Positions 308 through 37,516 of a stretch of 38,631 bases of DNA are shown here, in pieces; position 1 is the first letter of the stretch, and every line of letters begins with the position of its first letter. The position numbers and the translations under genes are program-made. The stretch comes from a virus. The stretch covers positions 1 to 38,631 of IMG/VR virus record IMGVR_UViG_3300005841_000055. One strand, written 5' to 3'. The notes below the pieces were generated by a model. The model saw only the letters and a program-made list of their open reading frames with translations, was not told the origin of the DNA and did not search any database.

Positions 308-997
308 ATGCATAACGTGATCCAGATCTCGGGCGGCATCGACAGCATGGCAATGCTGATCTACCTGCGCGGCCTGTGGTCCGACTCGGTGGTCATGTGG
401 GGTGACACGGGCGCGGCGTATCCCGAGACAACGGAACTGATGGAAGACGTGCGCCGCATGGTGCCGCACTTCCTGCACGTGCAGGGTGACCAGCCGGAAG
501 TGATCCGCACCTATGGCTGGCCGGTGGACGTGGTGCCGGTGAGCCACACCCGCTTCGGCGAGCACATCTATGGCCCGCGGCCGATCGTGTTTCAGTCTTA
601 TCTCGACTGCTGCGGCCGTGCGCGCTTCCTGCCACTGCAGCATGCGGTGCAGCGTGTCGGTGCCAAGGTGGTGTACCGCGGCCAGCGCAACAGCGACAAG
701 CGGCGCCCGCGCATCGAGCATGACAGCATCGATGAGTTCGGCATCACCTACAAGTTTCCGCTGCGTGATTGGTCGCGCGAGCGCGTGTTCGAGTACCTGC
801 AGCAGAACGCGCCCGAGCTGGTGGCGGCGTACTACAGCGAAGGCGAGTCCACCAGCCGTGACTGCTGGAGTTGCACGGCGTACCGGGACGACAACGTGGC
901 GCGCGTCGAGCATCTGCCACCACCGCAGCGGGAACAGGTGGAAACGGTTTTAAAGCAGTGGCGCGACATCGTGCGCGCCGACATGCAAGGAGCGTGA
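308..997 (+). CDS. PAPS/APS reductase-like PP-loop protein with Fe-S cysteines
   Basis: The 229-residue product belongs to the PP-loop (adenine nucleotide alpha-hydrolase) fold of PAPS/APS reductases and DndC-like proteins. The ATP-binding PP-loop SGGIDS is at residues 8-13. A Cys-Cys pair (C101-C102, in a CCGRARF context) and a later C186-x2-C189 reproduce the CC...CxxC pattern that binds a [4Fe-4S] cluster in assimilatory APS reductases. A basic GQR segment lies near 125-127. The C-terminal catalytic Cys motif of true reductases (ECGLH) is absent, so reduction of sulfate esters is unlikely. A sulfur-transfer or nucleotide-activation role, for example in DNA or RNA modification as in DndC, is inference. 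The ATG at 308 has no clear Shine-Dalgarno (SD) sequence. The gene sits 10 nt after the previous stop, inside the virion gene block. Its end overlaps a TTTTAAAG element at 948-955. Confidence 0.8.
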   Translation: MHNVIQISGGIDSMAMLIYLRGLWSDSVVMWGDTGAAYPETTELMEDVRRMVPHFLHVQGDQPEVIRTYGWPVDVVPVSHTRFGEHIYGPRPIVFQSYLDCCGRARFLPLQHAVQRVGAKVVYRGQRNSDKRRPRIEHDSIDEFGITYKFPLRDWSRERVFEYLQQNAPELVAAYYSEGESTSRDCWSCTAYRDDNVARVEHLPPPQREQVETVLKQWRDIVRADMQGA

Positions 998-998
998 C

Positions 999-1679
999 AT
1001 GGCCTCACCCCTCGGTGGAATTGATCCGAAGATCCTGCAGATGATCCTGCAGCAAGTAGGCGGCGACCCGAGCAAGCTGGCGAGCCTGCTGTCAGGCGCC
1101 ATGCCGGGCGGGCCGCCGGGCGCACCGCCGCCACCGGGCGGCGCCCCGCCGCCACCGGGCGGGCCACCGGGCGCACCGCCGCCACCGGGCGGCCCCAGCG
1201 CGATGCCACCTCCTCCCGGCATGCCGGGCGGCAACAGCGTGCCCGGCCTCACGCCGCCGCCACCGGGCGGGGGCATGCCGCCACCGCAATCGCCCTTCGG
1301 CCCCGATCCCGGCGGGCCGTCGATGGGCGGCATGCCGCCGCCACCGCAGGCGCCACAGGCGGGTGCGCGCAATCCGCAGATGGACGCCGTCAACATGACG
1401 CTGGGGCAGGCCGCCTTCGGCGGGCAGGAGCGCGACCTCGACCGGCAGCAGAAGCTCGCCGACGAACTACGGGGTGAGGCGATGCCCGGCATGCGCGGCA
1501 ACTCGCGGGTGCAGACGGCAGCGAACCCGCTGGAAATGCTCGCCACCGGCCTCGGCAACATCGGCGGCCAGATGAAGTCCGACAAGCTCGGCGTGGAGCG
1601 CGAGGCCATGTTCAAGAAGCGCATGGACCTCCTGCGCGACGACATGGAAGCATCGCGTAGCCGGTTCGGCCCAGAGTAG
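999..1679 (+). CDS. Pro/Gly-rich probable virion protein
   Basis: The 226-residue protein has three parts. A short helical N-terminus (about 1-33, PKILQMILQQ) is followed by a low-complexity Pro/Gly block (about 34-120) made of repeated PPPPGG and PPGAP units, then a charged, probably helical C-terminus (about 125-226). The start ATG follows an AAGGAG SD and lies 1 nt after the stop of the preceding gene (TGA-C-ATG), so the two are probably translationally coupled. The repeat block is also visible in DNA as near-identical CCGCCGCCACCGGGCGG units at 1117-1290. No family is recognised. The flexible middle linking two helical ends suggests a virion or tail-associated linker, which is inference only. 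Confidence 0.7.
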   Translation: MASPLGGIDPKILQMILQQVGGDPSKLASLLSGAMPGGPPGAPPPPGGAPPPPGGPPGAPPPPGGPSAMPPPPGMPGGNSVPGLTPPPPGGGMPPPQSPFGPDPGGPSMGGMPPPPQAPQAGARNPQMDAVNMTLGQAAFGGQERDLDRQQKLADELRGEAMPGMRGNSRVQTAANPLEMLATGLGNIGGQMKSDKLGVEREAMFKKRMDLLRDDMEASRSRFGPE

Positions 1680-1693
1680 GAGTCACCTACACC

Positions 1694-3097
1694 ATGTACA
1701 TCGACCCGTCCGCGCTCGACCTGTTCGGCCCTGACGACGGCGTGACCGGCACCGGCTCGCCGCCGGTCCTGCCGCTCGCCTACGCCGTGCGCAAGGGCAG
1801 GGGCAAGGGCCTCGAACTGGGTGACCGCAGCATGCTGCCGCAGGCCACCGCGGCCGCGGCCAGCGTGCCCGCGGCCAGTGCTGACCAGATCCGCACCCTG
1901 CCCAACGCGACGCAGGCGGCGCGCTCACCCAACCTCGGCGGGCTCGCGGCCGGCTACGACACCCAGATCAGCGAGTACCAGAAGCAACTGCAGGGACTGA
2001 ACGAAGACCCCGACTACAGCGGGGCCGCCACGGCCGCACGCAGGCGCGGCAGCGAGGGCGTACAGGTGCTCGGCGCGGCGCTCGCCGCCGGCTTGGGGCC
2101 GAAGGACATGCAGGGACTGCAGGGCCAGTTCGCGCAGCAGTCCGCGCACATGATGCAGCCGCAGAAGATCGAGGGCGGCGAGATCGACGTCAGCGGCAAC
2201 GTCAACCTCGATCCCGGCTACAAGCGGCAGAAGCAGATCACCGACTTGCGGGCGTCGATCGAAACGCTGGAGAAGCAGAAGCTCACCGCGGTCACGGCCG
2301 AGGAGAAGATGCGCGCCGAGGCGCTGCAGCACCAGCAGATGAATCAGTTGAAGGAACTGCAGATCATGGCGATGCGCGAGGCTGCGGCCGATCGCGCGGC
2401 CAACCAGCGCGAACTGATCGCGATGCGGCGCGAGGCCGCGGCCGGTGGCGGCAAGATGCAGGCGCACGGGGTCACCCCCGAGGGGCAGATCGTCAGCTAC
2501 AGCCCGACGCTCGGCCGCACCTTTGTCGCAGGGCCGAACGGCGACATGGTCGAGTACAAGGGACCGATGGTGTCGCAGGGCACTGCCGACAAGCAGGTGC
2601 TCGCGGCGCAGCATCTGCAGGGCTCGGAGCAGACCTTCCTCGATCTGGAAGCGCGCATGAAGGCCTTCCCCAATGCCTTCGGCGGCGCCTCGTCGCTGGC
2701 GGCGCTGACGCCCACCATCATTCAGTCACGCATCCTCAATGCCAAGCTCACGCCCGAGGAGCAGCAGGTACGCGCGGACGTGCTGCGGCAGGCCGCGCAG
2801 GCAGCGCATGATCTGCTCGGTGCAGCGCAGACACCGGCCGAACTCGCCACCGTTGCCAACTTCATCCCCAATGCGCAAGATCCGCCCGATCGTGTGCTGC
2901 AGAAGCTGGTGTCGTCGCGCGAGTGGCAGCAGCGGCAGTTGAAGGTTCTGGGGCCATGGGCCACGCAGGCGCGGACCATCAACGGCCCCGAGGCGCCGGC
3001 ACGGCCCGCGCCGTTGGCGACGCCCAAGGTGGGCGACGTGGTGGACGGTCATCGCTTTAAAGGCGGCGACCCGAAGCAGCGATCGAGTTGGGAGTAG
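1694..3097 (+). CDS. Ala/Gln-rich helical protein, probable internal virion protein
   Basis: The 467-residue protein is unknown to me. After a Pro/Ala-rich N-terminus (about 1-70) it has a long Gln/Glu/Ala/Arg-rich stretch (about 145-255) with heptad-like spacing that should form coiled coil. Residues 320-410 (QVRADVLRQAAQAAHDLLGA and following) are also helical, with a small basic C-terminus. An AGGAG lies 11 nt before the ATG. Short-tailed phages carry two to three large Ala/Gln-rich proteins next to the tail genes that are ejected with the DNA. This gene and the next two large ones occupy that place, which is the basis of the call. A CTTTAAAG element at 3055-3062 encodes Phe-Lys near the C-terminus. 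Confidence 0.65.
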   Translation: MYIDPSALDLFGPDDGVTGTGSPPVLPLAYAVRKGRGKGLELGDRSMLPQATAAAASVPAASADQIRTLPNATQAARSPNLGGLAAGYDTQISEYQKQLQGLNEDPDYSGAATAARRRGSEGVQVLGAALAAGLGPKDMQGLQGQFAQQSAHMMQPQKIEGGEIDVSGNVNLDPGYKRQKQITDLRASIETLEKQKLTAVTAEEKMRAEALQHQQMNQLKELQIMAMREAAADRAANQRELIAMRREAAAGGGKMQAHGVTPEGQIVSYSPTLGRTFVAGPNGDMVEYKGPMVSQGTADKQVLAAQHLQGSEQTFLDLEARMKAFPNAFGGASSLAALTPTIIQSRILNAKLTPEEQQVRADVLRQAAQAAHDLLGAAQTPAELATVANFIPNAQDPPDRVLQKLVSSREWQQRQLKVLGPWATQARTINGPEAPARPAPLATPKVGDVVDGHRFKGGDPKQRSSWE

Positions 3098-3101: not shown

Positions 3102-4814
3102 GTGAACCCGTGGGAGCGTGAATGGAGTGACGGCGCGGACACCGGGCCGTGGGCGAAGGAGTGGGCCAAGGTCGCACCGCCGCCCCCGCCGCCGGATGCC
3201 ACCGCGCTCGATCGCGCGCAGGCCGGCGCGGCCGGCGTCAACCGCGGTGCGCTGGTGAACCTCGCCGGCTTGCCGGTGGCAACCGCGCTCAACGCCTACG
3301 ACTTGGCGAAGGCCGGCGTCGGCGGCGTGATGGGCGCCTTCGGCGCCAAGCCCGAGAACCTGCCGGAACTGACTGATCGCAGCAAGGTGGCGGGCTCGCC
3401 CGAGTGGATCGCCAAGCAACTGGAAGAACGCGGCGCCGGGCCGGTCATCAATCCCAACCGGCCCGATGACCCGGCCTCGCGCTACCTGCACGTGGGCGGG
3501 CAGGGCGCGGCCGCCGGCATGGTGGCACCGCAGACGCTGCCGCAGGCGCTCGGCAGCGCCGCCACGGGCGCTGCCTCGATGCTGGCGAGCGAGGCGGCGG
3601 GCGACGCGGGTGCGGGCACCTCCGGTCAGGTGCTCGCGGCCTCGTTGCTGCCGGCGGCTACAACGGCCGCAGCGACGCGGGCGCAGGCCGCCATGGCGAA
3701 CGCGAGGCGCACTGCGGCCCAGCGCGCGGTGGTCGATGCCAACGTGGGCGCCGCACAGGAAGCGGGCTACGTCTTCCCGCCGGCACAGGTCAACCCGTCC
3801 CTCACCAACAAGGTCATCGGCGGCATCTCGGGCAAGGCCGCCACCGAGCAGGCGGCATCGCTGGACAACCAGCCGGTCACCAACGCGCTCGCGCGCAAGG
3901 CCTTGGGCCTGCCCGAGAACACGGCGCTGTCGGTGGAAACATTGGAAGCCGTGCGGCGGCAAGCGGGCGATGCCTACGATGCAGTCAAGAATTTCAATCT
4001 GCCGATCCGCGCCAACAACACCTATCAGCAGCGGCTCGCGGATCTGCACAGCGAGTATCTGGATCGCATCGGCGCGGGCGGCGGCGGCACCCCGGTGGAA
4101 TCGCTGCGGCTGTCGCACGTGGAGGACTTGCTGCGCGACATGAACCGCAACAGCTTCTCACCGACCAGTGCGGTCGAGTTGATCAAGCGATTGCGCAGCG
4201 ATGCCGACAGCGGCTTCCGCACCGGCAACGCCGAGTCCGCGCGCTACCAGAAGCGCATTGCCAATGCACTGGAGGATCTGGTGGGCGCCAATCTCAGGGC
4301 CGCCGGGCAGCGTGATCTGCTGACCGACTTTCAGGCAGCCCGGCAGCGCATCGCGCAGAGCTACGATGTGCAGAAGGCACTCAACCAAGGCACCGGCAAC
4401 ATCGATGCACCCAAGATCGCCGCGCGTCAGCGCGCTGATCGACCGTTATCCGGCGAACTGGAAACGATCGCCAATGCCGCCAACTTCGCGCCGTTGTCCA
4501 CGCGCGAGTTCCGGCAGACGCCGCCCGGCATCTCCGCGCTCGACGTGGGCCTCGGCACTTTGGGAGGTGCGGGCGCGATGGCATTCGGCCCTGCGGCGTT
4601 GGCGCCCGTGGCGCTGCCGGTGGCACGCATGCTGGCGCGCAAGGCCCTGCTGTCGAAGCCGTACCAGCAGTACATGGCGAAGCCCCGCACGGGTGAGCCG
4701 AGTGTGCTGGCGCGGGCACTCGCCGAGGCCGACGCACAGCAGGGCGCGCTGGCGGCGTCCTCGCTGTCGGAAGATGAGATGCGCCGCCGCCAACCCTTCA
4801 CCCAAGGACTTTAA
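3102..4814 (+). CDS. Large Ala-rich protein, probable internal/ejection protein
   Basis: The 570-residue product starts at GTG 3102, 4 nt after the previous stop. It begins with a Trp-rich peptide (WEREW, WAKEW), followed by a Pro run and Ala/Gly-rich segments (about 35-60 and 135-210) that could contact membranes. A mixed alpha region (about 215-440) holds a GYVFPP motif and regular helices. A second Ala/Gly/Pro hydrophobic segment lies near 480-515. There is no enzymatic motif. Proteins of this size with alternating hydrophobic Ala/Gly tracts and helical middles are common among phage ejection proteins, so that role is inferred from composition and position. The stop codon is part of a CTTTAAAG element (CTT-TAA), and the next gene starts 4 nt later. 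Confidence 0.65.
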   Translation: MNPWEREWSDGADTGPWAKEWAKVAPPPPPPDATALDRAQAGAAGVNRGALVNLAGLPVATALNAYDLAKAGVGGVMGAFGAKPENLPELTDRSKVAGSPEWIAKQLEERGAGPVINPNRPDDPASRYLHVGGQGAAAGMVAPQTLPQALGSAATGAASMLASEAAGDAGAGTSGQVLAASLLPAATTAAATRAQAAMANARRTAAQRAVVDANVGAAQEAGYVFPPAQVNPSLTNKVIGGISGKAATEQAASLDNQPVTNALARKALGLPENTALSVETLEAVRRQAGDAYDAVKNFNLPIRANNTYQQRLADLHSEYLDRIGAGGGGTPVESLRLSHVEDLLRDMNRNSFSPTSAVELIKRLRSDADSGFRTGNAESARYQKRIANALEDLVGANLRAAGQRDLLTDFQAARQRIAQSYDVQKALNQGTGNIDAPKIAARQRADRPLSGELETIANAANFAPLSTREFRQTPPGISALDVGLGTLGGAGAMAFGPAALAPVALPVARMLARKALLSKPYQQYMAKPRTGEPSVLARALAEADAQQGALAASSLSEDEMRRRQPFTQGL

Positions 4815-4818
4815 AGCC

Positions 4819-9046: not shown

Positions 9047-9261
9047 GCTTCCCCCTTGGGCACATCGACGTAGGGCATGGCGACGTCATCCGCCGTCAGC
9101 CCTTCGAAGATGGCCTGCTCGGTTTCGCCGTAGACGATGGCGATGGCGGGCATGGGGCCGAAGGCGTCCTTCACGATCGGCTGGCCCGCCACCAGTAGCT
9201 CCACGTTGCGCCGCGACAGGCCGATGATCAGCATGCCGGCATCGGTCTTGGCGATGATCAT
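9043..9261 (-). CDS. Small unknown phage protein
   Basis: The 72-residue protein reads MIIAKTDAGMLIIGLSRRNVELLV at the start (shown here only in part) and is mostly beta strand by appearance. It has a compact hydrophobic pattern and an acidic C-terminus. The ATG at 9261 shares its A with the stop of the repressor-like gene (TGATG), which favours it over the GTG one codon upstream. No family is recognised. It belongs to the chain of overlapping genes downstream of the helicase. Confidence 0.6.
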   Translation of the reverse strand: MIIAKTDAGMLIIGLSRRNVELLVAGQPIVKDAFGPMPAIAIVYGETEQAIFEGLTADDVAMPYVDVPKGEA

Positions 9262-9542
9262 CACACTCCCCAGAGATCCGGCCGCAGCAGCGCGGGCGAG
9301 ACTTTAAAGTACTCCGCGATCTGCCGCGCCCGCGGACCCGGCAGCAGGAAGTGGCGCGGTGCAGCCTCGGCCATGCGCTCCCAGCCGTACAGCGTCTGCG
9401 CGCGGATGCCGATCGCGATGGCAAGCTGCCGCTTGCTGCGCTCACCGAGCTTGTTCTCGATGAGCCAACTGAGCGGATGCTTGTTGGTGTTGCTGCCCCC
9501 CGGCATCTTGCGGGGGAGCTTCACGGGTTTTTGCGTTTTCAT
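9261..9542 (-). CDS. Cro/YdaS-like helix-turn-helix regulator
   Basis: The 93-residue basic protein has a helix-turn-helix at about 37-57 (KRQLAIAIGIRAQTLYGWER) and a C-terminal LRPDLWGV signature. This combination is typical of Cro/YdaS-like phage repressors, where the LRPD motif follows the DNA-binding helices. It is the only clear DNA-binding regulator in the genome, so it is a candidate reader of the CCTACA/TGTAGG operators or of the dispersed CTTTAAAG sites. That link is inference. Its start overlaps the helicase stop by 4 nt (ATGA). A CTTTAAAG element at 9302-9309 lies inside it and encodes Phe-Lys. Confidence 0.75.
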   Translation of the reverse strand: MKTQKPVKLPRKMPGGSNTNKHPLSWLIENKLGERSKRQLAIAIGIRAQTLYGWERMAEAAPRHFLLPGPRARQIAEYFKVSPALLRPDLWGV

Positions 9543-10945: not shown

Positions 10946-10985
10946 GTTCTGTCTCGGGTAGTGGGGTGTAGGTAATGACTACTAA

Positions 10986-11215: not shown

Positions 11216-11255
11216 GGTCTGTCTCGGTTGTAAGGGGGTGCCTACAGTACTTTAA

Positions 11256-11271
11256 AGCGATTATCGTGCCA
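11256..11271 (-). promoter_or_regulatory. Sigma54-like promoter merged with a CTTTAAAG element
   Basis: The minus strand reads TGGCACG-ATAA-TCGCT followed directly by TTAAAG. The -12 box therefore overlaps the palindrome CTTTAAAG (11250-11257). The related promoters have GCTTTAGTA or GCTTTACTA at this place, which suggests the octamer and the promoter tail are related. A TGTAGG half-site follows near +1. Confidence 0.65.
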
Positions 11272-12726: not shown

Positions 12727-12989
12727 TTCGTCACCCTTACGGCTTTTTTCGCCACCACGCAGACCAGCGTGCGCGACTCGTACCACTCGCGCCCGGCGAC
12801 CGACTCCATCAGGGCGCCGCGGGCGTCCAGTTCACTCTGGTACAGCCACACCGCTACGGTGGCGGTGTCGGCGTCGAGGACGCGAGCGCGGGCGTTGGTC
12901 AGCGCCGCGGTCTTGGTCACGAACGCCTGCCGCACCAGCTTGTTGCCGACGGCGTGTTCCGTCACGTGCAGTTGAGTTCCTTGTGCCAC
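12723..12989 (-). CDS. Small unknown protein, first gene of the VRR-NUC operon
   Basis: The 88-residue protein probably starts at GTG 12989. There GGAG is followed by the spacer CTTTAAA and then GTG, so the octamer forms the SD-to-start spacer. The sequence is beta-rich with a long helix (VRQAFVTKTAALTNARARVL) and a second strand pair (TVAVWLYQSEL). It is the first of six overlapping genes down to 11310. A leader element CCCCACTAC lies just upstream at 13002-13010. Confidence 0.6.
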   Translation of the reverse strand: MAQGTQLHVTEHAVGNKLVRQAFVTKTAALTNARARVLDADTATVAVWLYQSELDARGALMESVAGREWYESRTLVCVVAKKAVRVTK

Positions 12990-13007
12990 TTTAAAGCTCC
13001 GGTAGTG

Positions 13008-13033: not shown

Positions 13034-13678
13034 TCAGATGGTCTCGACAACCTTCTTCTTCTCGCGCTCGGTCTGCAGCATCATCTCCTGCTCGCAGGAA
13101 CCGCAGACCGGCCAGCCGTGCTCCTCGATCTTCTTCGCCGTCATGTAGCTGACGTTGCCGCAGCCGCACTCCAGCTTGTGCAGGCCGTGGCTGGCATTGC
13201 GCTTCTTCGCCACCAGCGCCACCTTGCCGTGCGGGTAGGCGCCAAGCTTGGCGAGGATCGCCGCCATCAGGGCGTGAGCGTCGGCGCGCTCGACCTTGGA
13301 GTGCTTGCCGCCCGTGTAGCCGACGGTCTTGCTGGCCTTGGTGAAGGCGGCGCCGTGACCGGACTTGCAGTCATCGACGGCGTGCAGCAGTTCATGCCCG
13401 AGCACGTCCAGCACTTCCAGCGGCTGGTCGAGCACCGGGGAGATCATCACCTCGTTGACGCCCGCGGCGCTGCGCGCACGGGGCCAGCACTCGCCGATGC
13501 GGCGCCGGGGCGAGCCGCCGCCGGGGAAGCCGCAGGCCATCTTGACGTCGGCCGGGACCACCACGCCGAGCTTGAGCCACGCCGCGCGGATGATGATGGT
13601 CGCCTGCGTCAGCCACTGCTCGCGGTGGAGCACCAGCTTCGGGTCGATCATGCCGCACAGGATTGCTTGCTTTTTCAT
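13034..13678 (-). CDS. SprT-like zinc metallopeptidase
   Basis: The 214-residue protein has the SprT/Spartan-type active site GHELLHAVDD (H95, E96, H99), a further His in SGHGAAF (H108), and a C-terminal zinc ribbon (CGCGNVSY...WPVCGSC). Cellular Spartan proteases cut DNA-protein crosslinks. Phage versions are common in early regions but their substrate is not established. A GTG three codons upstream (13687) is an alternative start, and neither start has a good SD. The gene is preceded by a long leader and a -24/-12 element at 13754-13769. Confidence 0.85.
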   Translation of the reverse strand: MKKQAILCGMIDPKLVLHREQWLTQATIIIRAAWLKLGVVVPADVKMACGFPGGGSPRRRIGECWPRARSAAGVNEVMISPVLDQPLEVLDVLGHELLHAVDDCKSGHGAAFTKASKTVGYTGGKHSKVERADAHALMAAILAKLGAYPHGKVALVAKKRNASHGLHKLECGCGNVSYMTAKKIEEHGWPVCGSCEQEMMLQTEREKKKVVETI

Positions 13679-13769: not shown

Positions 13770-13788
13770 ACGCTTTAAAGGCGTTGGC
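13766..13788 (-). other. Hairpin with TTTAAAG loop at a gene end
   Basis: Perfect 8-bp arms GCCAACGC and GCGTTGGC flank the 7-base loop TTTAAAG on the plus strand (CTTTAAA on the minus). The element includes the stop codon of the 74-residue membrane protein (CTT-TAA). The same architecture is repeated at 14967-14989. It may act as a transcript 3' end or as a protein-binding site. Confidence 0.55.
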
Positions 13789-14966: not shown

Positions 14967-14989
14967 GAGCCTGCTTTAAAGGCAGGCTC
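14967..14989 (-). other. Hairpin with TTTAAAG loop downstream of a gene
   Basis: Arms GAGCCTGC and GCAGGCTC (8 bp, perfect) flank the loop TTTAAAG, 12 nt after the stop of the gene at 15002-15370. Same design as 13766-13788. There is no U-tract. Confidence 0.55.
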
Positions 14990-17255: not shown

Positions 17256-17286
17256 CCTACAGTGTAGGGGCTGGCTTTAAAGCCCC
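17256..17286 (+). promoter_or_regulatory. Operator half-sites and CTTTAAAG hairpin before the replication genes
   Basis: CCTACA-G-TGTAGG (17256-17268) repeats the operator core. It runs into a hairpin whose arms GGGGCT and AGCCCC (17267-17272 and 17281-17286) enclose GGCTTTAA. The inner GGCTTTAAAGCC (17273-17284) is also palindromic. The element lies 18 nt after a stop and about 80 nt before the nuclease gene, so it could act as a regulated terminator or operator. Confidence 0.55.
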
Positions 17287-18499: not shown

Positions 18500-18535
18500 C
18501 CTGACCTAACCTAGACTTTAAAGGAGACACCTACC

Positions 18536-19915: not shown

Positions 19916-21997
19916 ATGAAAGGCAGCACCGTGAAGAAGCATTTCTGGATCGACATCGAGACCCGCTCCCGCACCGACCTCGTCAAGCATGGCGTCTACC
20001 GCTACGCCGCTGACCCCTCCACCGAAGTCCTGATCATCTGCTACGCGCTCGGCCACGGCCCCATCAAGACATGGGTGCGCGGCGCCGCCATGCCCGCGGA
20101 CCTGATGAGCGTGCTGGCGAAGCCCGCCCCGCACGTGTACCTGACGGCGCACAACGCCGGCTTCGAGCGCCACGTGCTCACGCGCCTGTTCCCGGCCGTG
20201 CGTGATCCGCGCCGCTGGTACTGCACGGCCACGCAGGCCCGCGCCGTGGCGCTGGCCGGCTCGCTGGAGTCAGCGAGTCACATGCTGGGCACCCATGTGC
20301 GCAAGGATCGGCGCGGCGGCGAGTTGATCCGCCTGCTGTCGATGCCGCAGGCCGATGGCAGCTTCCTTGAGGATGCCGGCCTGATGGCCGAGTTCGCGCG
20401 CTACTGCGCGCAGGACGTCGAGGTGATGCGCGCCATGTCCACCAACATGCCACCGCTCACCGAGGAGGCGCTGGCACTGTACGTGGCGAACGAAACCGTG
20501 AACGATCGCGGCCTGCCGATCGACGTCGATCTGTGCGCGGCCGCGACCACGTACGCCGAGCAGGCCGCGGACGAGGCGGCACTGCGCATCCGCGCCGTGA
20601 CCCGTGATGCGATCAACAGCGCCCGCTCGGTCAAGCTGGCGCCATGGATTCACGCTCGCCTCGCGCAGCAGCACCAGCACCTGATGCACGTGACGCGCAC
20701 CAAAGTAGCGGACGTACAACTGCATGGCGCTGCCGGCGGGGGTGGTATGCGCGCGGGCGACGCGCGGGGCGCCGCCCATAACCTTGCACGGGCCGCTGGC
20801 GCCACCTCGCAGCAAGGCCTGTCGCTCGACTCGGGCGTACGCGCGGCCCTGCTGGAAGCGATCGACCTCTACCCTGATGACTTCACGGCCGAGGTGATCG
20901 AGGCCATCGCGGCCGCGGAGGATGCGTCGATGGCCTCGGTGTCCAAGTTCGCCACCATGCTCGATCGCGTCAGTGCCGACGGGCGCCTGCGGGGTGCCTT
21001 CGTGATGAACGGCGCCAGCCAGACCGGACGCTTCTCCTCGACCGGCGCGCAACTGCACAACTTCCCGCGTGCGGTGGCGGAAGATCCGGACGCACTGCGG
21101 GCCACCATCCTCAGGGGCGGCGACTTGGGCGACAGCGTGCTCAAGGCTTTAAAGTCCATGCTGCGGCCGGCGGTGCGTTCGCCCAAGGGACTGATCGTGC
21201 GGGCGGATTGGAACGCCGTCGAGGCGCGCGGCCTGCCGTGGCTGGCAGGGCCGAGCGCCACCGACTACCTTGCCATGTGGGCCGACGAGGCGCGTGATCC
21301 GTACATGGAGCAGGCACTGCTGGCGGGGCTCACGCTGCGGCAGGGCGGCAAGGTGGTGGTGCTGTCGCTGGGCTACGGCGGCGGCCCCAATGCACTCGGC
21401 CGCATGAGCGGCACCTACGGGGTGCAGATCGCCGACAAGCAGCAGGTAGTGTGGAACTGGCGCAATGCCAATGCATGGGCGCCGGCATGGTGGGCCGAGC
21501 TTGAAGCGGCTGCCTTCAGTGCCCTGCGCAAGCGTGACTTGGTGTGGCAGGGGGCGCAGCGCATCAGCTTCGCCGCAGATGCGTTCGGGCTTGCCATGCT
21601 GCTGCCATCCGGTCGCGTGCTCCGCTATCCCGATGCCAAGTTCGAATGGCAGGGCGAGCAGTCGCGCATCACCTACCAGAAGGCGGCATGGAAGCCCAAG
21701 GCCAACGTCAAGGAATGGCCGCGGGCCACCATGTGGCACGGCACCCTCGCGGAGAACGCGACGCAGGCCATGTGCGGGGATCTGCTGCGGCATGCATTGA
21801 TCGGCGCGGTGCAGGACGGACTCCCGATCATCGGCCATGTGCATGATGAGTTGATCGCGGAAGCGCCGAACACCAAGGCCGCCACGGTGCGGGATCTTGC
21901 ACGCGCGCTGCAGCAGCGTATGCTCGACTTACCCGTATGGGCGGCTGGCTTGCCGCTCGCTGTCGAGACTGACAGCGCCGCCTACTATCGCAAGTGA
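19916..21997 (+). CDS. Family A DNA polymerase with 3'-5' exonuclease domain
   Basis: This 693-residue replicative polymerase is related to DNA polymerase I but lacks the 5' nuclease. The exonuclease motif I is WIDIETRS (D13, E15). Polymerase motif A is VRADWNAVEARGLPWLAG with D431. Motif B is LRQGGKVVVLSLGYGG with K479 and Y487. Motif C is HVHDE with D644-E645. The usual DYSQIELR of motif A is replaced by DWNAVEAR, as in many phage enzymes. A GTG at 19931 with an AAAGG SD is an alternative start and would remove five residues without affecting the exonuclease motif. A CTTTAAAG element at 21147 is read as Ala-Leu(TTA)-Lys. Confidence 0.93.
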   Translation: MKGSTVKKHFWIDIETRSRTDLVKHGVYRYAADPSTEVLIICYALGHGPIKTWVRGAAMPADLMSVLAKPAPHVYLTAHNAGFERHVLTRLFPAVRDPRRWYCTATQARAVALAGSLESASHMLGTHVRKDRRGGELIRLLSMPQADGSFLEDAGLMAEFARYCAQDVEVMRAMSTNMPPLTEEALALYVANETVNDRGLPIDVDLCAAATTYAEQAADEAALRIRAVTRDAINSARSVKLAPWIHARLAQQHQHLMHVTRTKVADVQLHGAAGGGGMRAGDARGAAHNLARAAGATSQQGLSLDSGVRAALLEAIDLYPDDFTAEVIEAIAAAEDASMASVSKFATMLDRVSADGRLRGAFVMNGASQTGRFSSTGAQLHNFPRAVAEDPDALRATILRGGDLGDSVLKALKSMLRPAVRSPKGLIVRADWNAVEARGLPWLAGPSATDYLAMWADEARDPYMEQALLAGLTLRQGGKVVVLSLGYGGGPNALGRMSGTYGVQIADKQQVVWNWRNANAWAPAWWAELEAAAFSALRKRDLVWQGAQRISFAADAFGLAMLLPSGRVLRYPDAKFEWQGEQSRITYQKAAWKPKANVKEWPRATMWHGTLAENATQAMCGDLLRHALIGAVQDGLPIIGHVHDELIAEAPNTKAATVRDLARALQQRMLDLPVWAAGLPLAVETDSAAYYRK

Positions 21998-24734: not shown

Positions 24735-24916
24735 ATGACACGGCGACCACAGCTTACATCGCGCTGCAGGTTGAGAACGAGCGCAAGCGCGTGCAGCTTG
24801 AGAGCTTTAAAGCGTGGGCACGCAGCGTGGCCTATCGCACCAATGGCGCCGCGTCGCACGTCGAGCGCGTGATCCATGCCGAGGCCGTGCTGCGTGGTGG
24901 TGATCCCGATGAGTAA
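24677..24916 (+). CDS. Small protein between terminase subunits, related to its upstream neighbour
   Basis: The 79-residue helical protein starts at ATG 24677, overlapping the previous stop, and ends overlapping the large terminase start. It shares the peptide LVRLLHKVAD (and its DNA) with the probable small terminase subunit. The rest (ALQVENERKRVQLESFKAWA) is helical and charged. It could be a second part of a split small terminase or a helper. The relationship is seen, the function is inferred. A CTTTAAAG element at 24805 encodes Phe-Lys. Confidence 0.65.
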   Translation: MNDAAYKPLLVRLLHKVADDDTATTAYIALQVENERKRVQLESFKAWARSVAYRTNGAASHVERVIHAEAVLRGGDPDE

Positions 24917-26312
24917 GACGCGCGGTGCATGGGACCAGCCACCGCGGGACAACGGCCTCACGCATGAGATCACTTTAAAGGCGCGGCCATGGCAGCGGCC
25001 GCTGCGTGACTACTTCCACGCGGGTGGCAAGCGTGCCGTCGTCGTCGCCCATCGGCGTGCCGGCAAGGATCGCGTGGCCCTGTTCATCGAGCTTGAGCAG
25101 GCACTGCGCGTGCGCTGCGAGGTGTGGCACTGCCTGCCGACCTACAAGCAGGCGCGCAAGGTGGTGTGGGATGCGCTCACCGGAGATGGCGAGCGCCTGA
25201 TCGACGTCGCCTTCCCCCGCTCGATCGTGCGCAAGCGCATCGAGGACGAGATGAAGATCGAGTTGATCACTGGCTCCCTCTGGCGCCTCGTCGGTGCCGA
25301 CAACTTCGATGCGCTCGTCGGTGCCAACCCGAAGCACGTGACGTTCAGCGAGTACGCCCTGACCAGCCCGAAGGCCTACGAGTTCGTGCGCCCGATCCTC
25401 GCTGAGAACGGCGGCTCGCTGCTGTTCATCACCACGCCCCGTGGCTACAACCACGCGCATGCGCTCTACACGCATGCGCAGACGGCGCCTGCGTGGTACG
25501 CCGGCTACCACCCGGTGAGTGACACGCACCTGATCCAGCAGGACGTGCTGGAGGAGGAGCGGCGCACCATGCCGGATGAGTTGTACCGGCAGGAGTACGA
25601 CTGCGACTTCAGCGCCGCCAACGTCGGCTCGATCCTCGGCAGCTACCTTGAGCAGGCCGAGCGTGATGGTCGCATCGCAGGCGCCGACCTGTATGACCCC
25701 GGCGGTGCGCCCATCGAGTTGTTCAGCGACATCGGCTTCCGCGACGCGGCTGCGTGGTGGTGGGTGCAGCCCTGCCCCGGCGGGTTCAACGTCATCGACC
25801 ACGATGAGGCCACCGGGCTCGATGCCGAGCAGTGGATCGAGCGCATCAGGGCCAAGCCATGGTCAGCGCACCAGCAGCGCCTCGGCTGCATCCACCTCCC
25901 GCATGATGCGCGGGCCAAGACCTTCCGCTCGCGCCATACCGTCGTCACGCTGTTCCTCAACAGCCAACTGGCCGACCGCTACTCCGTGGTGCCGCAGACC
26001 ACGGTGGCCGATCGCATCAATGCGGCGCGCGTGTTCGTGCGTACCTGCAGCTTCAACCGCGCCGCCTGCGCCGCCGGGCTGCACCATCTGCGCGAGTGGC
26101 ACTTCCACTTTGACGAGGACCGCCACAACTTCGGGCGCGAGCCCGAGCACGATGAGCACTCGCACAGCGGCGATGCCTTCAGCTATGCTGCCGTGGCTTT
26201 AAAGCCGTACGTGCCCAGCGCAGCGCCGCCCCCCGCCGACCGCGACGTCGGCGTCGAGGCCAACTACGCCTTCGACCTGAACCGACTGTTTGAGGACCGC
26301 GATGCCGCCTGA
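24909..26312 (+). CDS. terL: Terminase large subunit
   Basis: The 467-residue packaging motor has the N-terminal ATPase with Walker A VAHRRAGKD (K53), the segment WHCLPTYKQARKV, and a Walker B region HVTFSEYAL in which Ser-Glu takes the usual Asp-Glu place, as in T7-like terminases. Motif III follows as LLFITTPRG. The C-terminal nuclease starts at ELFSDIGFRDAAAWWW, with the first catalytic Asp in SDIG, and a late HSHSGDAFSYA contains another. It cuts concatemers and pumps DNA into the prohead through the portal encoded next. It overlaps both neighbours (8 and 11 nt). CTTTAAAG elements lie at 24973 and 26197, both read as Leu(TTA)-Lys. Confidence 0.93.
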   Translation: MSKTRGAWDQPPRDNGLTHEITLKARPWQRPLRDYFHAGGKRAVVVAHRRAGKDRVALFIELEQALRVRCEVWHCLPTYKQARKVVWDALTGDGERLIDVAFPRSIVRKRIEDEMKIELITGSLWRLVGADNFDALVGANPKHVTFSEYALTSPKAYEFVRPILAENGGSLLFITTPRGYNHAHALYTHAQTAPAWYAGYHPVSDTHLIQQDVLEEERRTMPDELYRQEYDCDFSAANVGSILGSYLEQAERDGRIAGADLYDPGGAPIELFSDIGFRDAAAWWWVQPCPGGFNVIDHDEATGLDAEQWIERIRAKPWSAHQQRLGCIHLPHDARAKTFRSRHTVVTLFLNSQLADRYSVVPQTTVADRINAARVFVRTCSFNRAACAAGLHHLREWHFHFDEDRHNFGREPEHDEHSHSGDAFSYAAVALKPYVPSAAPPPADRDVGVEANYAFDLNRLFEDRDAA

Positions 26313-28467
26313 TCCCGTCATGCCGCCGCAGCAGGCAGCGCCTACAGCGCCGCCACCGTACCTCGCCGAGCCCAAGCCGCAACAGCAGCAGGCAGGGGCT
26401 ACACCCGAGCAGGCCGAGCACGCCACGCCCGAGTACTGGGCGAAGGAGATCGCGGCATCGAAGAAGTGGCTGCAGAAGTGGCACCAGCGGGCCAAGACCA
26501 TCGAGCGCAAGTACCTGCTGGCCGAGCAGGATGCCAACAGCAACACCCGCGACACCTCGCGCTTCCCGCTGTTCTGGTCCAACGTGCAGACGGTTCTCGC
26601 GGCCATGTATGGGCAGATCCCCAAGGTCGATGTCGATCGCACCAACCTCGATCCCGGCGACGACGTCGCGCGCGTCGCGGCCATCATCCTTGAGCGCATC
26701 TTCCAGTTCGAGGCCGACGACTTGGAGAACAGCCCCTACTACGTGATGCAGGACTGCATCCTCGACCGGCTGGTGGCCGGCATGGGTGTGTCATGGGCGC
26801 GCTACGAGTTCAAGTCGCAGGACTTCACCGTGGGCGGCGTGATGGACGACCAAGGTGCCCCGCTGGTGATCCCCATCATCACCGAGGAGCGGGCGCCGAT
26901 CGACTACGTGCGCTGGTCCGACTTCCTGTTCTCGCCGTGCAAGCGGTGGCAGGAGCGGAGGTGGGTTGCTCGCCGGGTGCCCATGACCGCGGATGCGCTG
27001 AAGAAGCGGTTCGGCGCCGCGGCCGAGGGCGTGCCGATGGCGTTGAAGTCATCGGCTGTCAGTCGCGCTGCCAGTGACGATGACCCGCTGCGTGCGCTGA
27101 CCGAGGACATGGCCGACGTGTGGGAGATCTGGTGCGGCACCACCAAGTGGGCCTACTGGTACGTGCAGGGCCATGACAAGCTGCTCGACGCGAAGCAAGA
27201 TCCGCTGCAGTTGCAGGACTTCTTTCCGGTGCGACGGCCGCTCTGCGCCACCGCGCTCACCAAGGCCTACATCCCGAAACCGGACTACGACTACGCCCGC
27301 TCGCAGTACGACGAGCTTGACCTGATCGCGAGCCGCACCGGCATGCTGACCGAGGCTTTAAAGCTGGTGGGCGTGTACGACAAGGCGGCCGAGGGCGTGC
27401 AACGCATGCTCAATCAGGCCAGCATGAATCAACTGATCCCGGTGGACAACTGGGCCATGTTCGCCGAGAAGGGCGGCATCAAGGGACAGGTGGATTGGCT
27501 CCCGCTCGACACCGTGGTGGCCGCGCTCGGCTATCTGGTGCAGCGCAAGCAGACGCTGTCGCAGGAGGTGTTCGAGTTGCTCGGCATCAGCGACATCCAG
27601 CGCGGCATGGCGGCGACCAAGGAGACTGCCACCACGCAGCGCCTCAAGGCCCAGTTCGGCAGTGCCCGCTCGGCGCGCGGCACCGAGGAGGTGGCGCGCT
27701 TCGTCACCGACAATTACCGCATGCGCGCGGAGATCATCTGCAAGCACTGGCAGCCGCAGACCATCCTCTACATCTCGCAGATCGACAAGACACCGGACAA
27801 GGCGCTCGCGGCCGAAGCCGTCAAGCTGCTGAAGAGCGATCCCTCCGTCGCCATGCGCGTCAAGATCAGCGCCGACAACGTGACCGCGCCGGATTGGGAA
27901 CTGGAGAAGGGCCAGCGCGTCGAGTTCCTCACCGCGGTCACCGGCTTCATCTCCGCGGCCTTGCCGATGGTGACGCAGTCGCCCTCCGCGGGGCCATTCG
28001 TGATCCAGATGCTGCAGTGGACCGCATCCGGCTTTAAAGCCGGCAAGCAGATCGAGGGCGTGCTGGATCAGGCACTGCAGGCGATGCAGGCCGACAAGGC
28101 CAAGCCCCCGCCACCCCCGCCGCCGCCCACTCCGTTCGACAAGAAGGAGATCACGGCCGCGGAGAAGAACCGCGCCAGCGCCTCGAAGGAGTTCGCCGAG
28201 GCCGTGCAGACGCTGGTCGAGCTTGGCATCGATCCCATGATGGCAGCGCAGCAACTGCAGATGTACAGCATGCAGAACGCGCAGTCGGTGCAGGGAATAA
28301 CTACACCGCCGCCGCCCCCGCAAGGCTCGCCGGGTGGTGCGCCACCGGGTGGTGCGCCACCGGGTGGACCGCCACCGGGTGGCCCACCGGGCATGCCGCC
28401 CGGCGCAGGCTTGCCGCCCAATGCACCGGGGCCGATGCCGCATCTGCCCGGCCTGCCGGGGGTGTAG
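26302..28467 (+). CDS. Portal protein with Pro/Gly-rich C-terminus
   Basis: This is a 721-residue protein directly after the large terminase. The start region AKEIAASKKWLQKWHQRAKT and the segment RFPLFWSNVQTVLAAMYGQI followed by PKVDVDR are characteristic of portals of podovirus-like phages, as is the RGMAATKETATTQRLKAQFG region (about 434-453). It should form the dodecameric ring at the head vertex. The last 150 residues contain two Pro runs and a PPGG-rich tail (about 660-721), also visible as GGTGGTGCGCCACCGG DNA repeats at 28331-28385. That tail is longer than usual for portals and may be a flexible extension. CTTTAAAG elements lie at 27356 and 28032. Confidence 0.87.
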   Translation: MPPDPVMPPQQAAPTAPPPYLAEPKPQQQQAGATPEQAEHATPEYWAKEIAASKKWLQKWHQRAKTIERKYLLAEQDANSNTRDTSRFPLFWSNVQTVLAAMYGQIPKVDVDRTNLDPGDDVARVAAIILERIFQFEADDLENSPYYVMQDCILDRLVAGMGVSWARYEFKSQDFTVGGVMDDQGAPLVIPIITEERAPIDYVRWSDFLFSPCKRWQERRWVARRVPMTADALKKRFGAAAEGVPMALKSSAVSRAASDDDPLRALTEDMADVWEIWCGTTKWAYWYVQGHDKLLDAKQDPLQLQDFFPVRRPLCATALTKAYIPKPDYDYARSQYDELDLIASRTGMLTEALKLVGVYDKAAEGVQRMLNQASMNQLIPVDNWAMFAEKGGIKGQVDWLPLDTVVAALGYLVQRKQTLSQEVFELLGISDIQRGMAATKETATTQRLKAQFGSARSARGTEEVARFVTDNYRMRAEIICKHWQPQTILYISQIDKTPDKALAAEAVKLLKSDPSVAMRVKISADNVTAPDWELEKGQRVEFLTAVTGFISAALPMVTQSPSAGPFVIQMLQWTASGFKAGKQIEGVLDQALQAMQADKAKPPPPPPPPTPFDKKEITAAEKNRASASKEFAEAVQTLVELGIDPMMAAQQLQMYSMQNAQSVQGITTPPPPPQGSPGGAPPGGAPPGGPPPGGPPGMPPGAGLPPNAPGPMPHLPGLPGV

Positions 28468-29887: not shown

Positions 29888-30058
29888 CTTTTACAAGCTC
29901 GCAGCACAGTAGCGCCTTCGTGCATGAACCCGGCCCCCGCGGCCGCGCCATCCTCTGCACCGGAGCGAGCGTGTCTTTAAAGGACACGGCTCCCCCACCG
30001 AAAGAGGCGACGACTTGAAGCGATTCTGCTTTTATTCGTCAACCATTCGGGAGGAACC
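29888..30058 (+). promoter_or_regulatory. Capsid gene leader with CTTTAAAG hairpin
   Basis: This 171-bp gap holds a hairpin at 29971-29987 with arms GTGTC and GACAC around TTTAAAG, extended by GAGC and GGCTC with one bulged base. A short AT-richer part follows (TTCTGCTTTTATTCGTC, 30023-30039) and then a strong GGGAGGA SD. No clear promoter hexamers are seen. The leader probably controls the high expression of the capsid gene. Confidence 0.45.
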
Positions 30059-34567: not shown

Positions 34568-36208
34568 ATGGCGCGGGCCAACACGTCATTCGCGCCGCAG
34601 CCGCAGCGTTACCAAGGCGGCATGTTCCCCGCCCCTTTAAAGGGGCTCACGGTGCGCTACACGCTGAATGCGCAGGACGCGAACACGGCACTGCTGCTGC
34701 GCAACGTGTTGTGCCGGCGTTATGGCGTTGAGTTGCGCCGGGGCTACCGGCGCTGGATGACCGGCATTCCCGGCGAAGTGCGCTCCCTGATGTCCTATCT
34801 GCCGGCACGGGGCGCGGGCAGCACCATGCAGCCCCGCTTGTGGGCCGCAGCCTCGGACGGCATCATCTATGAAGTCACCGCGCAGCAGGTAACGCCTACT
34901 GATGCAGTGACGCCGTTCCTGACCGTACCGAACCAGAGCACGCCGGGTGTGTTCAGTTGGACTAATTTCAGCGCGGGCGGGCAGAACTATCTGGTGGCCT
35001 GCAGCGCCGGGGGCGGGGTGTGGACGTTCGAGGATAGTGCCGGCTGGATCGATCGCACTGCCGGCATCACCGGCACCGATGCCAGCAAGTTCGACTTCGT
35101 GATGGTGTGGAAGAATCGCCTCTGGTTCATCGCGCTCAATTCCAACATCGCATGGTATCTGCCGGTGCTGGCGTTTCAAGGCGTGGCGCAGCCGTTCGAC
35201 TTCGGGCCGCTGCTGGTGTTCGGTGGCGACCTCGCCGCGATGGCGTCATGGACGCTCGATGCTGGTGACGGCGTCGATGACAAGCTGGTGGTGGTGGGCC
35301 GCGGGGGTGACGTGCTGGTGTACGAAGGCACTGACCCCGCTACGCCGGGGGAGTTCCGCATCGCGGGGCGCTGGGCCGTCGGCAGGGTGCCTGTAGGCCG
35401 GCGCTTCATGTCCAAGTACGGCGGCGATCTGTCCATCATCACGCCCAACGGCATCGAGCGCATGAGCCAGCTAACGTCGGCGCGCGGGCTCAACGTGCCG
35501 GCTGGCGAGCTTGGCGGCACCGAGGATTGGGTGCGCTACATGGAGCGCATCGCGCAGGATGTGCGCGGCAGCTATCAGTCGCCCTTCTGGCAGTTGCTGC
35601 ACTTCATGGGCGAGCAGTGCGCCATCATCATCACGCCGCACAACGGCCCGCAGGACGGGCTGCAGTACGTGTTCGGCACGCTGTCGGGCGGCTGGAGTGA
35701 GTTCAGCGGCATCCCCATGCTGTCGATCGAGGCGCACGATGGCGAGCTTTATTTCGGCACCAAGGATGGCAAGGTGATGCAGATGTTCTTCGGCACCACC
35801 GATGACAGCCTGCAGGACGGCACGCCGGGCACCGCGGTAGTGGCATCAGTGCAGACGTCGTTCGTGGCGTTGAGCAGCGACGAGTTCCACACCAAGCGGC
35901 CGCTGATGGTGATGCCCATGTTCATCGCGCCGAGCGCGCCCAGCGTGAAGGCGCAGGTCAACACCGATTGGAGCTTCCAGCCGATACCGGGCTCACCCAT
36001 CTACAGCCCGCGGGGGCTCGCGGTGTGGGATAGCGCGCAGTGGGACAACGCGATATGGGCGGGCAGCGGCAATTTCTACAATGCGTGGGTTGGCGCCGAG
36101 GGGCTCGGCACCCATTGCTCGCTGCGCATGGACTTCACGGGCGAGTCGCCCGGCACCATCTTCACCACGTGGAAGTTGCTGGCTGAAGTCGGCCAAGGAG
36201 TGCTTTAA
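34568..36208 (+). CDS. Large beta-rich tail protein, tail tube B/propeller-like
   Basis: The 546-residue protein, 3 nt after the adaptor-like gene, is beta-rich with regularly spaced Trp, Phe and Gly (FEDSAGWIDRTAGITGTDAS, FVMVWKNRLWFIALNSNIAW, DKLVVVGRGGDVLVYEGTDP, FGTKDGKVMQMFFGTTDD). This is the pattern of the beta-propeller-containing nozzle or tail tubular B proteins of podoviruses, which close the tail tube. Length is a little below that of T7 gp12. The stop lies in a CTTTAAAG element (CTT-TAA), with the next gene starting 1 nt later. A 16-bp palindrome GCCCCTTTAAAGGGGC lies at 34631-34646 inside it. Confidence 0.78.
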   Translation: MARANTSFAPQPQRYQGGMFPAPLKGLTVRYTLNAQDANTALLLRNVLCRRYGVELRRGYRRWMTGIPGEVRSLMSYLPARGAGSTMQPRLWAAASDGIIYEVTAQQVTPTDAVTPFLTVPNQSTPGVFSWTNFSAGGQNYLVACSAGGGVWTFEDSAGWIDRTAGITGTDASKFDFVMVWKNRLWFIALNSNIAWYLPVLAFQGVAQPFDFGPLLVFGGDLAAMASWTLDAGDGVDDKLVVVGRGGDVLVYEGTDPATPGEFRIAGRWAVGRVPVGRRFMSKYGGDLSIITPNGIERMSQLTSARGLNVPAGELGGTEDWVRYMERIAQDVRGSYQSPFWQLLHFMGEQCAIIITPHNGPQDGLQYVFGTLSGGWSEFSGIPMLSIEAHDGELYFGTKDGKVMQMFFGTTDDSLQDGTPGTAVVASVQTSFVALSSDEFHTKRPLMVMPMFIAPSAPSVKAQVNTDWSFQPIPGSPIYSPRGLAVWDSAQWDNAIWAGSGNFYNAWVGAEGLGTHCSLRMDFTGESPGTIFTTWKLLAEVGQGVL

Positions 36209-36209
36209 A

Positions 36210-36911
36210 GTGGCCCGTCAGAAAAAGCTAACCCTACCGAAAGGAACGCGCGTGAATCGTCCAAGCACAAAACCTGTTGATCCGTTGTGGGTGCCGGCCA
36301 AGAGTTACCAGACGTCGATGAAGATGGTGGAGGATCTGCAGGCGCACGATTGGGCCAACAAGGTGCTGCTCGATGGCGGCGACGTGGTGCAGTTCTCGCT
36401 GATGCCGCCGCCCGTGCTCAACTACTACACGCAGGCTGATTGGAGCGTCGGCCAGCAGTACACCAGCGGCCAGCCGACCGGCGCCGACACCGGCACGCAG
36501 GGCGGCGAGGCCGGCGTGCTGCCGTTCGGCGGCCACGTGTACACAGGCGTCGATCCGTACCCGAGCATGAAAGGCGACGACCTGTACAAGCTCACGCTCA
36601 CGGTGCCGGCCGATTGGCCCAAGGGACCGAACATGAACACCATCAGCGTCGGCGAGCACGGCGCCAGTGGCGGGCCGCAGCAGCGCGACGTCAAGCTGCG
36701 CGACGGCAGCGGCAAGATCCTGTATCAGACGATCGGCACTTACCCGAGCATCCCTTACTGCGTCGGCGGGCCGCCGGGCGCGGGTGTGATCGTGCTGGAG
36801 CCGGCCGGCGTGTATTACCTCGAAATTTTTAACAACGGGCCGCTGGCCGAGGGTGCCACGTATCCACCGATCACCGACATGGTGGTGTACTGCTACGCAC
36901 CGCAAAAGTGA
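36210..36911 (+). CDS. Tail-region protein
   Basis: The 233-residue protein starts at GTG 36210, using the final G of a CTTTAAAG element. GGAG lies 9 nt upstream and the previous stop is 1 nt away. The N-terminal 20 residues are basic and the rest is beta-type with many Gly, Pro and Tyr (GGDVVQFSLMPPPVLNYYTQ, GSGKILYQTIGTYPSIPYCV, LEPAGVYYLEIFNNGPLAEG). No family is recognised. It is likely a tail accessory or baseplate-like component, judged from position. Confidence 0.65.
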   Translation: MARQKKLTLPKGTRVNRPSTKPVDPLWVPAKSYQTSMKMVEDLQAHDWANKVLLDGGDVVQFSLMPPPVLNYYTQADWSVGQQYTSGQPTGADTGTQGGEAGVLPFGGHVYTGVDPYPSMKGDDLYKLTLTVPADWPKGPNMNTISVGEHGASGGPQQRDVKLRDGSGKILYQTIGTYPSIPYCVGGPPGAGVIVLEPAGVYYLEIFNNGPLAEGATYPPITDMVVYCYAPQK

Positions 36912-37060
36912 ACGCAGCCGGCGAGCCGCCGGTCAATGGCAGCGTCGGCACCCGGCTGGCGCTGCTAGAAGCACGGGTGAGGCTGATCACGATCGCGCTG
37001 GAAGGCATGATCGTGGTGGTGGTCAGCGCATTGCTGGCGTACTTTTTCAAGGGACAGTAG
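36908..37060 (+). CDS. Small single-span membrane protein, XhlA/holin-like
   Basis: The 50-residue protein starts at GTG 36908, overlapping the previous stop as GTGA, and ends TAG directly before the next ATG. An amphipathic N-terminal helix (VGTRLALLEARVRLITI) precedes one membrane segment (about 28-47, EGMIVVVVSALLAYFF) and a short basic end. This is the design of XhlA-like proteins that assist lysis and of spanin- or holin-type small phage proteins. The tight packing between two genes supports it being real. Confidence 0.7.
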   Translation: MNAAGEPPVNGSVGTRLALLEARVRLITIALEGMIVVVVSALLAYFFKGQ

Positions 37061-37516
37061 ATGCACGTGGTCACGGCGTTAACGGTGCAAGAGAAGGTCG
37101 CCATGCTGGGCTTCCTGTCCGAGCATGAGGTGCGCCTGCCACCGAGCGGCGACTTTCAGGCCTTCGGCAGCGTGTCGGCCGTCAACCATGAATTGCTGGG
37201 CGTGGTCGCGTTCAATGGATTCTGGGGCCACGTGTGCAGCATCCACACCGCGGGTGAAGGCAACTGGATAAGCCGCACCCTGATCTGGCGCACCTTTGAC
37301 TATCCGTTCCGCCAACTCGACATGCGCGCATTGATGGCGCCGGTCGCCGCGAGCAACGTGCGCAGCTACAACTTCATCAAGCGCATGGGCTTTAAAGAGA
37401 TCCACCGGATCACCGATGGCTGGGACGCCGGCGATGACCTGATCGTGCTGCAGATGCTGCGTGACGAGTGCCCGTGGCTGGCGAAGCTCGACAAGCACTT
37501 CACCAAGTATCATTAA
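37061..37516 (+). CDS. GNAT-like acetyltransferase fold protein
   Basis: The 151-residue protein shows the GNAT pattern in its second half. A helix (TLIWRTFDYPFRQLDMRALM) is followed by VAASNVRSYNFIKRMGFKEI, which corresponds to the conserved N-x-x-S/A-x-x-F-x-x-x-GF of the family, and a final VLQMLRDECPWLAKL. Such proteins are frequent near tail genes of podoviruses. Their substrate is unknown. The ATG lies directly after the stop of the small membrane protein. A CTTTAAAG element at 37390 encodes Phe-Lys. Confidence 0.78.
   Translation: MHVVTALTVQEKVAMLGFLSEHEVRLPPSGDFQAFGSVSAVNHELLGVVAFNGFWGHVCSIHTAGEGNWISRTLIWRTFDYPFRQLDMRALMAPVAASNVRSYNFIKRMGFKEIHRITDGWDAGDDLIVLQMLRDECPWLAKLDKHFTKYH

Follow-up and report, generated by a model that had tools for sequence, protein, structure and literature searches.

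Dispersed 8-bp palindromes in a virus genome as probable binding sites of the phage's own SprT-like protein

The virus record IMGVR_UViG_3300005841_000055, analysed here over its whole length (the window: 38,631 bp with a 60-bp direct terminal repeat), carries exactly 21 copies of the 8-bp palindrome CTTTAAAG, dispersed around the genome of a phage with structural genes akin to those of Mx8 and Stenotrophomonas phage BUCT555. We propose that the reader of these words is an SprT-like protein which the phage itself encodes and whose family consists of DNA-repair proteases; this proposal is drawn from sequence comparison, and we give it a probability of roughly 0.7. Related phages change the site variant throughout the genome, and the outer base of the site covaries with a short loop of SprT.

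No other 7- to 8-mer of the window comes near the over-representation of CTTTAAAG. An order-2 Markov model expects 0.02 copies, and 100 dinucleotide shuffles of the window gave a mean of 0.03 and a maximum of 2; an order-3 model gives 2.86 for the two strands together, but the motif itself enters its fit. Some 20 copies are not what the order-2 model predicts. A first reading of the letters alone (the sequence-only reading) had arrived at 21 exact copies and an enrichment of about 180-fold; our count is the same, and the ratio is fair for a base-composition model. One-mismatch variants lie at 948 (TTTTAAAG), 6385 (GTTTAAAG) and 37511 (CATTAAAG), and 21 of the 23 TTTAAA hexamers in the window have C...G flanks. 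Spacing of the sites is more even than random (coefficient of variation 0.62 versus 0.93, p = 0.017). Six sites fall between genes and another three run across a stop codon, in a genome that is 7% non-coding; the others lie within genes on both strands. The sites hold 7 of the 31 TTT, 7 of the 40 AAA and 5 of the 16 TTA codons of called genes, one TTA fewer than the six reported earlier.

The word is conserved beyond its neighbours. Relatives with 75-83% nucleotide identity keep the 8-mer at 40-100% of aligned sites; the share kept is 14-35% when all 8-mers are counted and 15-39% when AT-rich ones are, so that in the conservation comparison suggested by the sequence-only reading the sites were retained more often than other 8-mers. 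Where a site is lost, the gene may have another within a few codons, at codon 110.7 versus 102.3 in gene 37061-37516 and 33.3 versus 46.7 in the terminase gene. The nearest site-free relatives, L014 and L015 (= G003), have major capsid proteins 82% identical to that of the window phage and zero sites, and they are without its early and replication module. Because relatives without sites encode the same residues with other, GC-rich codons, selection acts on the DNA word rather than on the protein, as had been argued from the window alone; the dispersed, stoperator-like layout described there is likewise supported. L014 and L015 are themselves rich in two other words, CAGCTG (121 in 40 kb, 19.6 expected) and CGATCG (125, 37.7 expected).

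Whole genomes switch variant together, using CTTTAAAG, GTTTAAAC/GTTTACAC or ATTTAAAT/ATTTACAC. Among phages with a related early module, G016, G022, G017 and G015 have GTTTAAAC and GTTTACAC in place of CTTTAAAG, and G013 has ATTTACAC and ATTTAAAT. The exchange can be followed at orthologous places: GTTTAAAC at 1419 of G016 corresponds to ATTTAAAT in G013 and to CTTTAAAG in G025, and ahead of the capsid gene GTTTACAC corresponds to CTTTAAAG in G020 and G025. These changes are often synonymous; for example, a single base at the third position of an Asn codon distinguishes GTGTAAAC from GTGTAAAT in the genes for terminase and polymerase. A coordinated switch across the genome is the pattern expected of a diverging trans-acting reader. 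Since related phages switch specificity together with a phage protein, a host protein, one of the readers first considered, is unlikely.

The protein that follows the switch is SprT. The window protein resembles annotated SprT-like phage proteins in tblastn (up to 44% identical); 13 of 18 family members match Pfam PF10263 at E <= 0.01, and the window protein itself scores no family. H95, E96, H99, H108, C171 and C173, which include the HExxH motif and the third metal-ligand histidine, are invariant in 18 SprT sequences. In an AlphaFold model with a predicted local distance difference test score (pLDDT) of 80.7 the protease domain is confident, and residues 158-164 fall below 50. These are exactly the residues of the loop KKRNASH, which follows the protease domain and precedes the C-terminal zinc ribbon, and their low confidence might fit a segment that could order on DNA.

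We aligned 46 SprT proteins from site-bearing phages by site type and found that the loop predicts the outer base of the site without exception: R without P goes with G (28/28), P with A (8/8), and Y or H with C (10/10). G-type loops are mostly KKQ(S/T)TR and A-type loops KKQPTR, and C-type loops are KRNASH, KKKATY, KKDKTY and KVQKTY, the last found in L308, a separate lineage. In the window protein H164 takes the position of R in G-type loops and A162 that of P in A-type loops. When phages are pooled by loop residue, those with Y/H contain CTTTAAAG 92 times (0.18 expected) and lack the other words altogether, those with R contain GTTTAAAC 232 times (5.6 expected), and those with P contain ATTTAAAT 33 times (0.66 expected). 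A tree built without the loop columns has at least six changes of site type, each with a matching residue change; in the best tree there are four C pairs and two A pairs. Out of 199 SprT columns, a single one sets all four C lineages apart from G and A and a single one sets both A lineages apart from G, and these two columns stand two residues apart inside the loop. The pairing of R with an outer G would fit the common contact between arginine and guanine. A further SprT-bearing locus, L293, has a different palindrome, GTGTACAC (9 copies, 0.17 expected), and the odd loop GKQKNR, a possible fourth specificity.

Isolated phages extend the code. Venkman, R26L, Mica and other isolates have in common with the window SprT and little else by tblastn; beyond SprT, Venkman has a distant terminase and tail match and R26L a distant helicase match. 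GTTTAAAC occurs 34 times in Venkman (1.7 expected), 20 times in the whole record of R26L and 7 times in Mica (0.09 expected), and is missing from most actinobacteriophages. Zeta1847 and Lego were checked after the code had been fixed: their loops, KKQSTR and KKQTTR, predict an outer G, and GTTTACAC is present 22 times in Zeta1847 (0.08 expected) and 25 times in Lego. The same word is found in 4A (13 copies, 0.22 expected), JackieB (41), Amyev (23), Soondubu (19) and Caron (17), and the reversed word has 0 matches in Zeta1847, Lego, JackieB, Amyev, Soondubu and Caron. In a scan for SprT, most carriers had dispersed NTTTAAAN or NTTTACAN sites, at 32 to 67% GC and often with no detectable homologue of the helix-turn-helix (HTH) protein discussed below. 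When loci of 8 kb or more were counted, 75 of 116 SprT-positive ones were enriched in sites. The corresponding figure for SprT-negative loci was 29 of 161, and all 29 are CTTTAAAG-bearing fragments from the lineages of the window, G025 and G020, in which SprT lies elsewhere; outside fragments of window-type lineages it was 0 of 132.

The sprT gene is itself preceded by a site, which lies 9-95 bp upstream in 12 of 14 phages checked. The distance is 16-20 bp in Mano, MQ-4, KA2-1, ECO1230-10 and Mica, and 31-66 bp in Amyev, Lego (37 bp), Soondubu, Caron and JackieB; in Zeta1847 a site stands 9 bp ahead of the likely sprT ATG, the annotated start being earlier. 4A and R26L have no site so close. 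Over seven separate lineages, with the two misses counted, the chance of five or more is about 9e-7, a figure that is a guide only because the 100-bp limit was picked after the positions had been seen.

We suggest that an NTTT half-site, inverted to give NTTTAAAN, would be bound by SprT, presumably as a dimer, with the outer base N set by the loop. SprT would occupy some 20 sites across the genome and one ahead of its own gene, and because of this arrangement it is most likely a self-regulating DNA-binding regulator at dispersed operators; such a regulator would account for the intragenic sites, for the one ahead of sprT and for a specificity that changes often. Bound SprT could then silence the genome locally, serving lysogeny or immunity in temperate phages and temporal control in others. 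We hold this stoperator-like function tentatively, at somewhat under even odds.

Several points weigh against SprT as the reader. We know of no SprT protein with sequence-specific binding. Many loci were picked using SprT as the query, which biases co-occurrence and makes it weak when taken alone; covariation is unaffected. In some SprT loci (L261, L266 and L282) the words tested are scarce or absent, and the SprT-bearing isolates Eden, Epa5, PSA20 and FP1 have none or one. The switches number only six independent events; with two or four pairs, a per-lineage sign test is by itself unable to reach 0.05. When the smaller set of 7-15 phages is used, chance gives several proteins a few separating columns; SprT has nine, and the other proteins are not shared across the 46. 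Finally, a lysogenic role is not evident for the window phage because no integrase or ParB was found in it; ParB (PF02195), the protein that goes with parS partition sites, had no match in eight phages. In the window phage the role may instead be temporal control or, by analogy with ArdC, protection of phage DNA by a tethered protease.

Among other possible readers, the sequence-only reading had named the Cro-like HTH protein encoded at 9261-9542. This protein is present in all full-length window-type and G016/G025-type phages, its gene contains one of the sites, and its structure model shows only the common Cro/C1 fold (VIA-align, Foldseek). We dropped it for want of covariation with site type: its recognition helix is identical in C-type G020 (CTTTAAAG) and G-type G017 (GTTTAAAC), 0 of its 84 columns separate C, or A, from G, and no homologue was detected in many site-bearing phages, isolates included. 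Binding of the sites by this protein is thus improbable. The suggestion of an unrecognised small phage protein came closest, the best candidate being the SprT-like protein of 214 residues. A little less improbable than the HTH protein, and still unlikely, is that a third, unshared protein reads the sites or that SprT does so with a partner, the loop covarying through contact with the partner or with adjacent DNA. SprT has no assigned classical DNA-binding fold and neighbouring gene families vary between lineages, both of which would suit such an arrangement, but the code holds across phages with little but SprT in common. When family content was compared between SprT-positive loci with and without sites, no second near-universal separating family emerged. 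We regard a methylation-linked iterated palindrome as scarcely credible. HIP1 of cyanobacteria is an over-represented 8-bp palindrome (PMC4390886), but the asymmetric site variants and the loop-base code argue against the parallel, and methyltransferases of PF01555 and PF00145 were not found in eight phages, other methyltransferase families not having been searched.

A different alternative concerns what SprT does at the sites rather than which protein reads them. SprT may be tethered to phage DNA by the sites, or activated there, as a protease that would clear DNA-bound host proteins or restriction enzymes, with regulation secondary. The catalytic residues are invariant, and the top, non-significant Foldseek match of the model is human Spartan (6mdx, E 0.076). 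ArdC of R388, a Spartan-like metalloprotease, is an antirestriction protein, but its antirestriction is independent of its protease activity (PMC7213743), and the site ahead of sprT in most phages looks regulatory. On balance we think this function possible but doubtful, and we prefer SprT as a regulator acting at its dispersed sites, whose positions in the window are collected in the table.

Table. Positions in the window of the CTTTAAAG sites and of the two proteins considered as their readers
Feature	Position	Strand	Remarks
CTTTAAAG site	3055..3062		end of gene 1694-3097; conserved in G001
CTTTAAAG site	4809..4816		overlaps stop codon of gene 3102-4814
CTTTAAAG site	9302..9309		within HTH gene
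CTTTAAAG site	11250..11257		overlaps sigma54-like promoter
CTTTAAAG site	12989..12996		directly downstream of sprT
CTTTAAAG site	13773..13780		95 bp upstream of sprT start; within hairpin
CTTTAAAG site	14974..14981		intergenic; loop of hairpin with 8-bp stem
CTTTAAAG site	17275..17282		intergenic
CTTTAAAG site	18516..18523		intergenic, ahead of gene 18536
CTTTAAAG site	21147..21154		DNA polymerase gene; same codon in G001, G002, G010, L007, L231
CTTTAAAG site	24805..24812		
CTTTAAAG site	24973..24980		terminase gene, codon 33
CTTTAAAG site	26197..26204		terminase gene, codon 441; retained in every aligned site-carrying relative
CTTTAAAG site	27356..27363		portal gene; GCT TTA AAG versus GCG CTC AAG in relatives without sites
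CTTTAAAG site	28032..28039		portal gene
CTTTAAAG site	29542..29549		gene 28802-29887
CTTTAAAG site	29975..29982		upstream of major capsid gene, within hairpin; capsid leader of G016, G022 has GTTTACAC
CTTTAAAG site	32901..32908		gene 32767-33357 (R F K); G025 has site at same codon
CTTTAAAG site	34635..34642		gene 34568-36208
CTTTAAAG site	36203..36210		overlaps stop codon of gene 34568-36208
CTTTAAAG site	37390..37397		gene 37061-37516; 8 codons off in G001, G002, L013 (site turnover)
SprT-like protein, 214 aa, proposed site reader	13034..13678	minus	HExxH (H95 E96 H99), H108, C-terminal zinc ribbon
Loop KKRNASH codons, residues 158-164, proposed specificity loop	13187..13207	minus	covariation; low pLDDT
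Cro/C1-fold HTH protein, 93 aa	9261..9542	minus	earlier candidate, not favoured as reader

Other elements of the window were noted alongside the sites. Between 10986 and 16754 there are eight sigma54-like promoters (TGGCACG-N4-T(T/C)GC), all non-coding and mostly 55-62 bp upstream of small early genes; the word TGGCACGNNNNNNGCTTT has 5 copies against 0.00 expected. Such promoters are also present in G001, G002 and L231 and not in the G016/G025 group. Often directly downstream of them is an inverted repeat, GTAGG-N5-CCTAC (at 10968, 12150, 14682, 15393, 16756 and others), with 9 matches of at most one mismatch against 0.29 expected. A hairpin-rich leader ahead of the major capsid gene (29900-30058) is conserved in the window clade, with CTTTAAAG within a variable hairpin. 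Rfam has no family in the window, this leader included, and we rejected an RNA role for the sites: complementarity between site flanks is overall not above that of shuffles, even though a few intergenic sites do lie in hairpins. In L008, upstream of position 6609, the start of the capsid gene is seemingly interrupted by intron-like sequence. A search for the host did not find the HTH protein in the genome collection scanned, and a capsid scan led to four distant loci. The 109-kb record IMGVR 3300025934_000001 was considered as a prophage with host flank and rejected, its flank encoding another phage; in L163, at about base 10711, a 109-kb IMG/VR record fuses a different 70-kb phage with the window phage, probably as an assembly chimera.

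If SprT does read these sites, it becomes a candidate for a missed repressor in several phages. In cluster AZ, Arthrobacter phages such as Powerpuff make stable lysogens that are immune to superinfection, although no repressor gene could be recognised (PMC8758107). Cluster AZ phages have sprT, and Lego, a Powerpuff relative from the same study, combines an SprT-like gene and a G-type loop with the GTTTACAC sites counted above; the SprT-like protein would be a named candidate for the repressor of this cluster. A family known for cutting proteins off DNA would have turned to reading sequence, with a specificity loop decipherable from the protein sequence alone, and dispersed repeats in many phages, absent from the literature we found, would be explained. 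It is conceivable, though we would not yet bet on it, that phage SprT-like proteins are widespread unrecognised sequence-specific regulators which read NTTTAAAN-type sites through a loop code in phages of Proteobacteria and Actinobacteria, supplying the missing immunity repressors of temperate ones, with protease activity as the switch. Our literature search, which covered few subscription papers, returned no description of CTTTAAAG, GTTTAAAC or GTTTACAC as phage repeats and none of a sequence-specific SprT.

A close parallel is with the stoperators of cluster A mycobacteriophages (L5, Bxb1), 20-30 short dispersed phage sites of which most are off promoters (PMC6550527); the window sites, too, are many, dispersed and mostly outside promoters. 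In cluster A, related phages that differ in their site consensus differ correspondingly in its reader (PMC6550527), and the frequent change of specificity seen here resembles that divergence. L5 stoperators are 13 bp long, asymmetric, oriented with transcription and bound by a two-domain monomeric repressor (PMC9283540), whereas the sites described here are 8-bp palindromes or near-palindromes with an SprT-like candidate reader, and they show no orientation with transcription: CTTTAAAG is a perfect palindrome, and the asymmetric GTTTACAC lies on both strands in Zeta1847. The SPBRE sites of SPbeta are dispersed phage operators with a reader of unexpected fold, the former tyrosine recombinase MrpR (PMC10516654), but they comprise a 15-bp motif at about ten sites in promoter regions, and the window sites are mostly inside genes. 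HIP1 is also a highly iterated 8-bp palindrome; it belongs to cellular genomes and is tied to methyltransferases (PMC4390886). Spartan/SPRTN, which has the SprT domain, and ArdC resemble the proposed reader as HExxH metalloproteases that associate with DNA, but they are not known as sequence-specific, and ArdC binds single-stranded DNA non-specifically (PMC7213743). Dispersed operators are already familiar in phages; an SprT-like reader with a loop code would be new.

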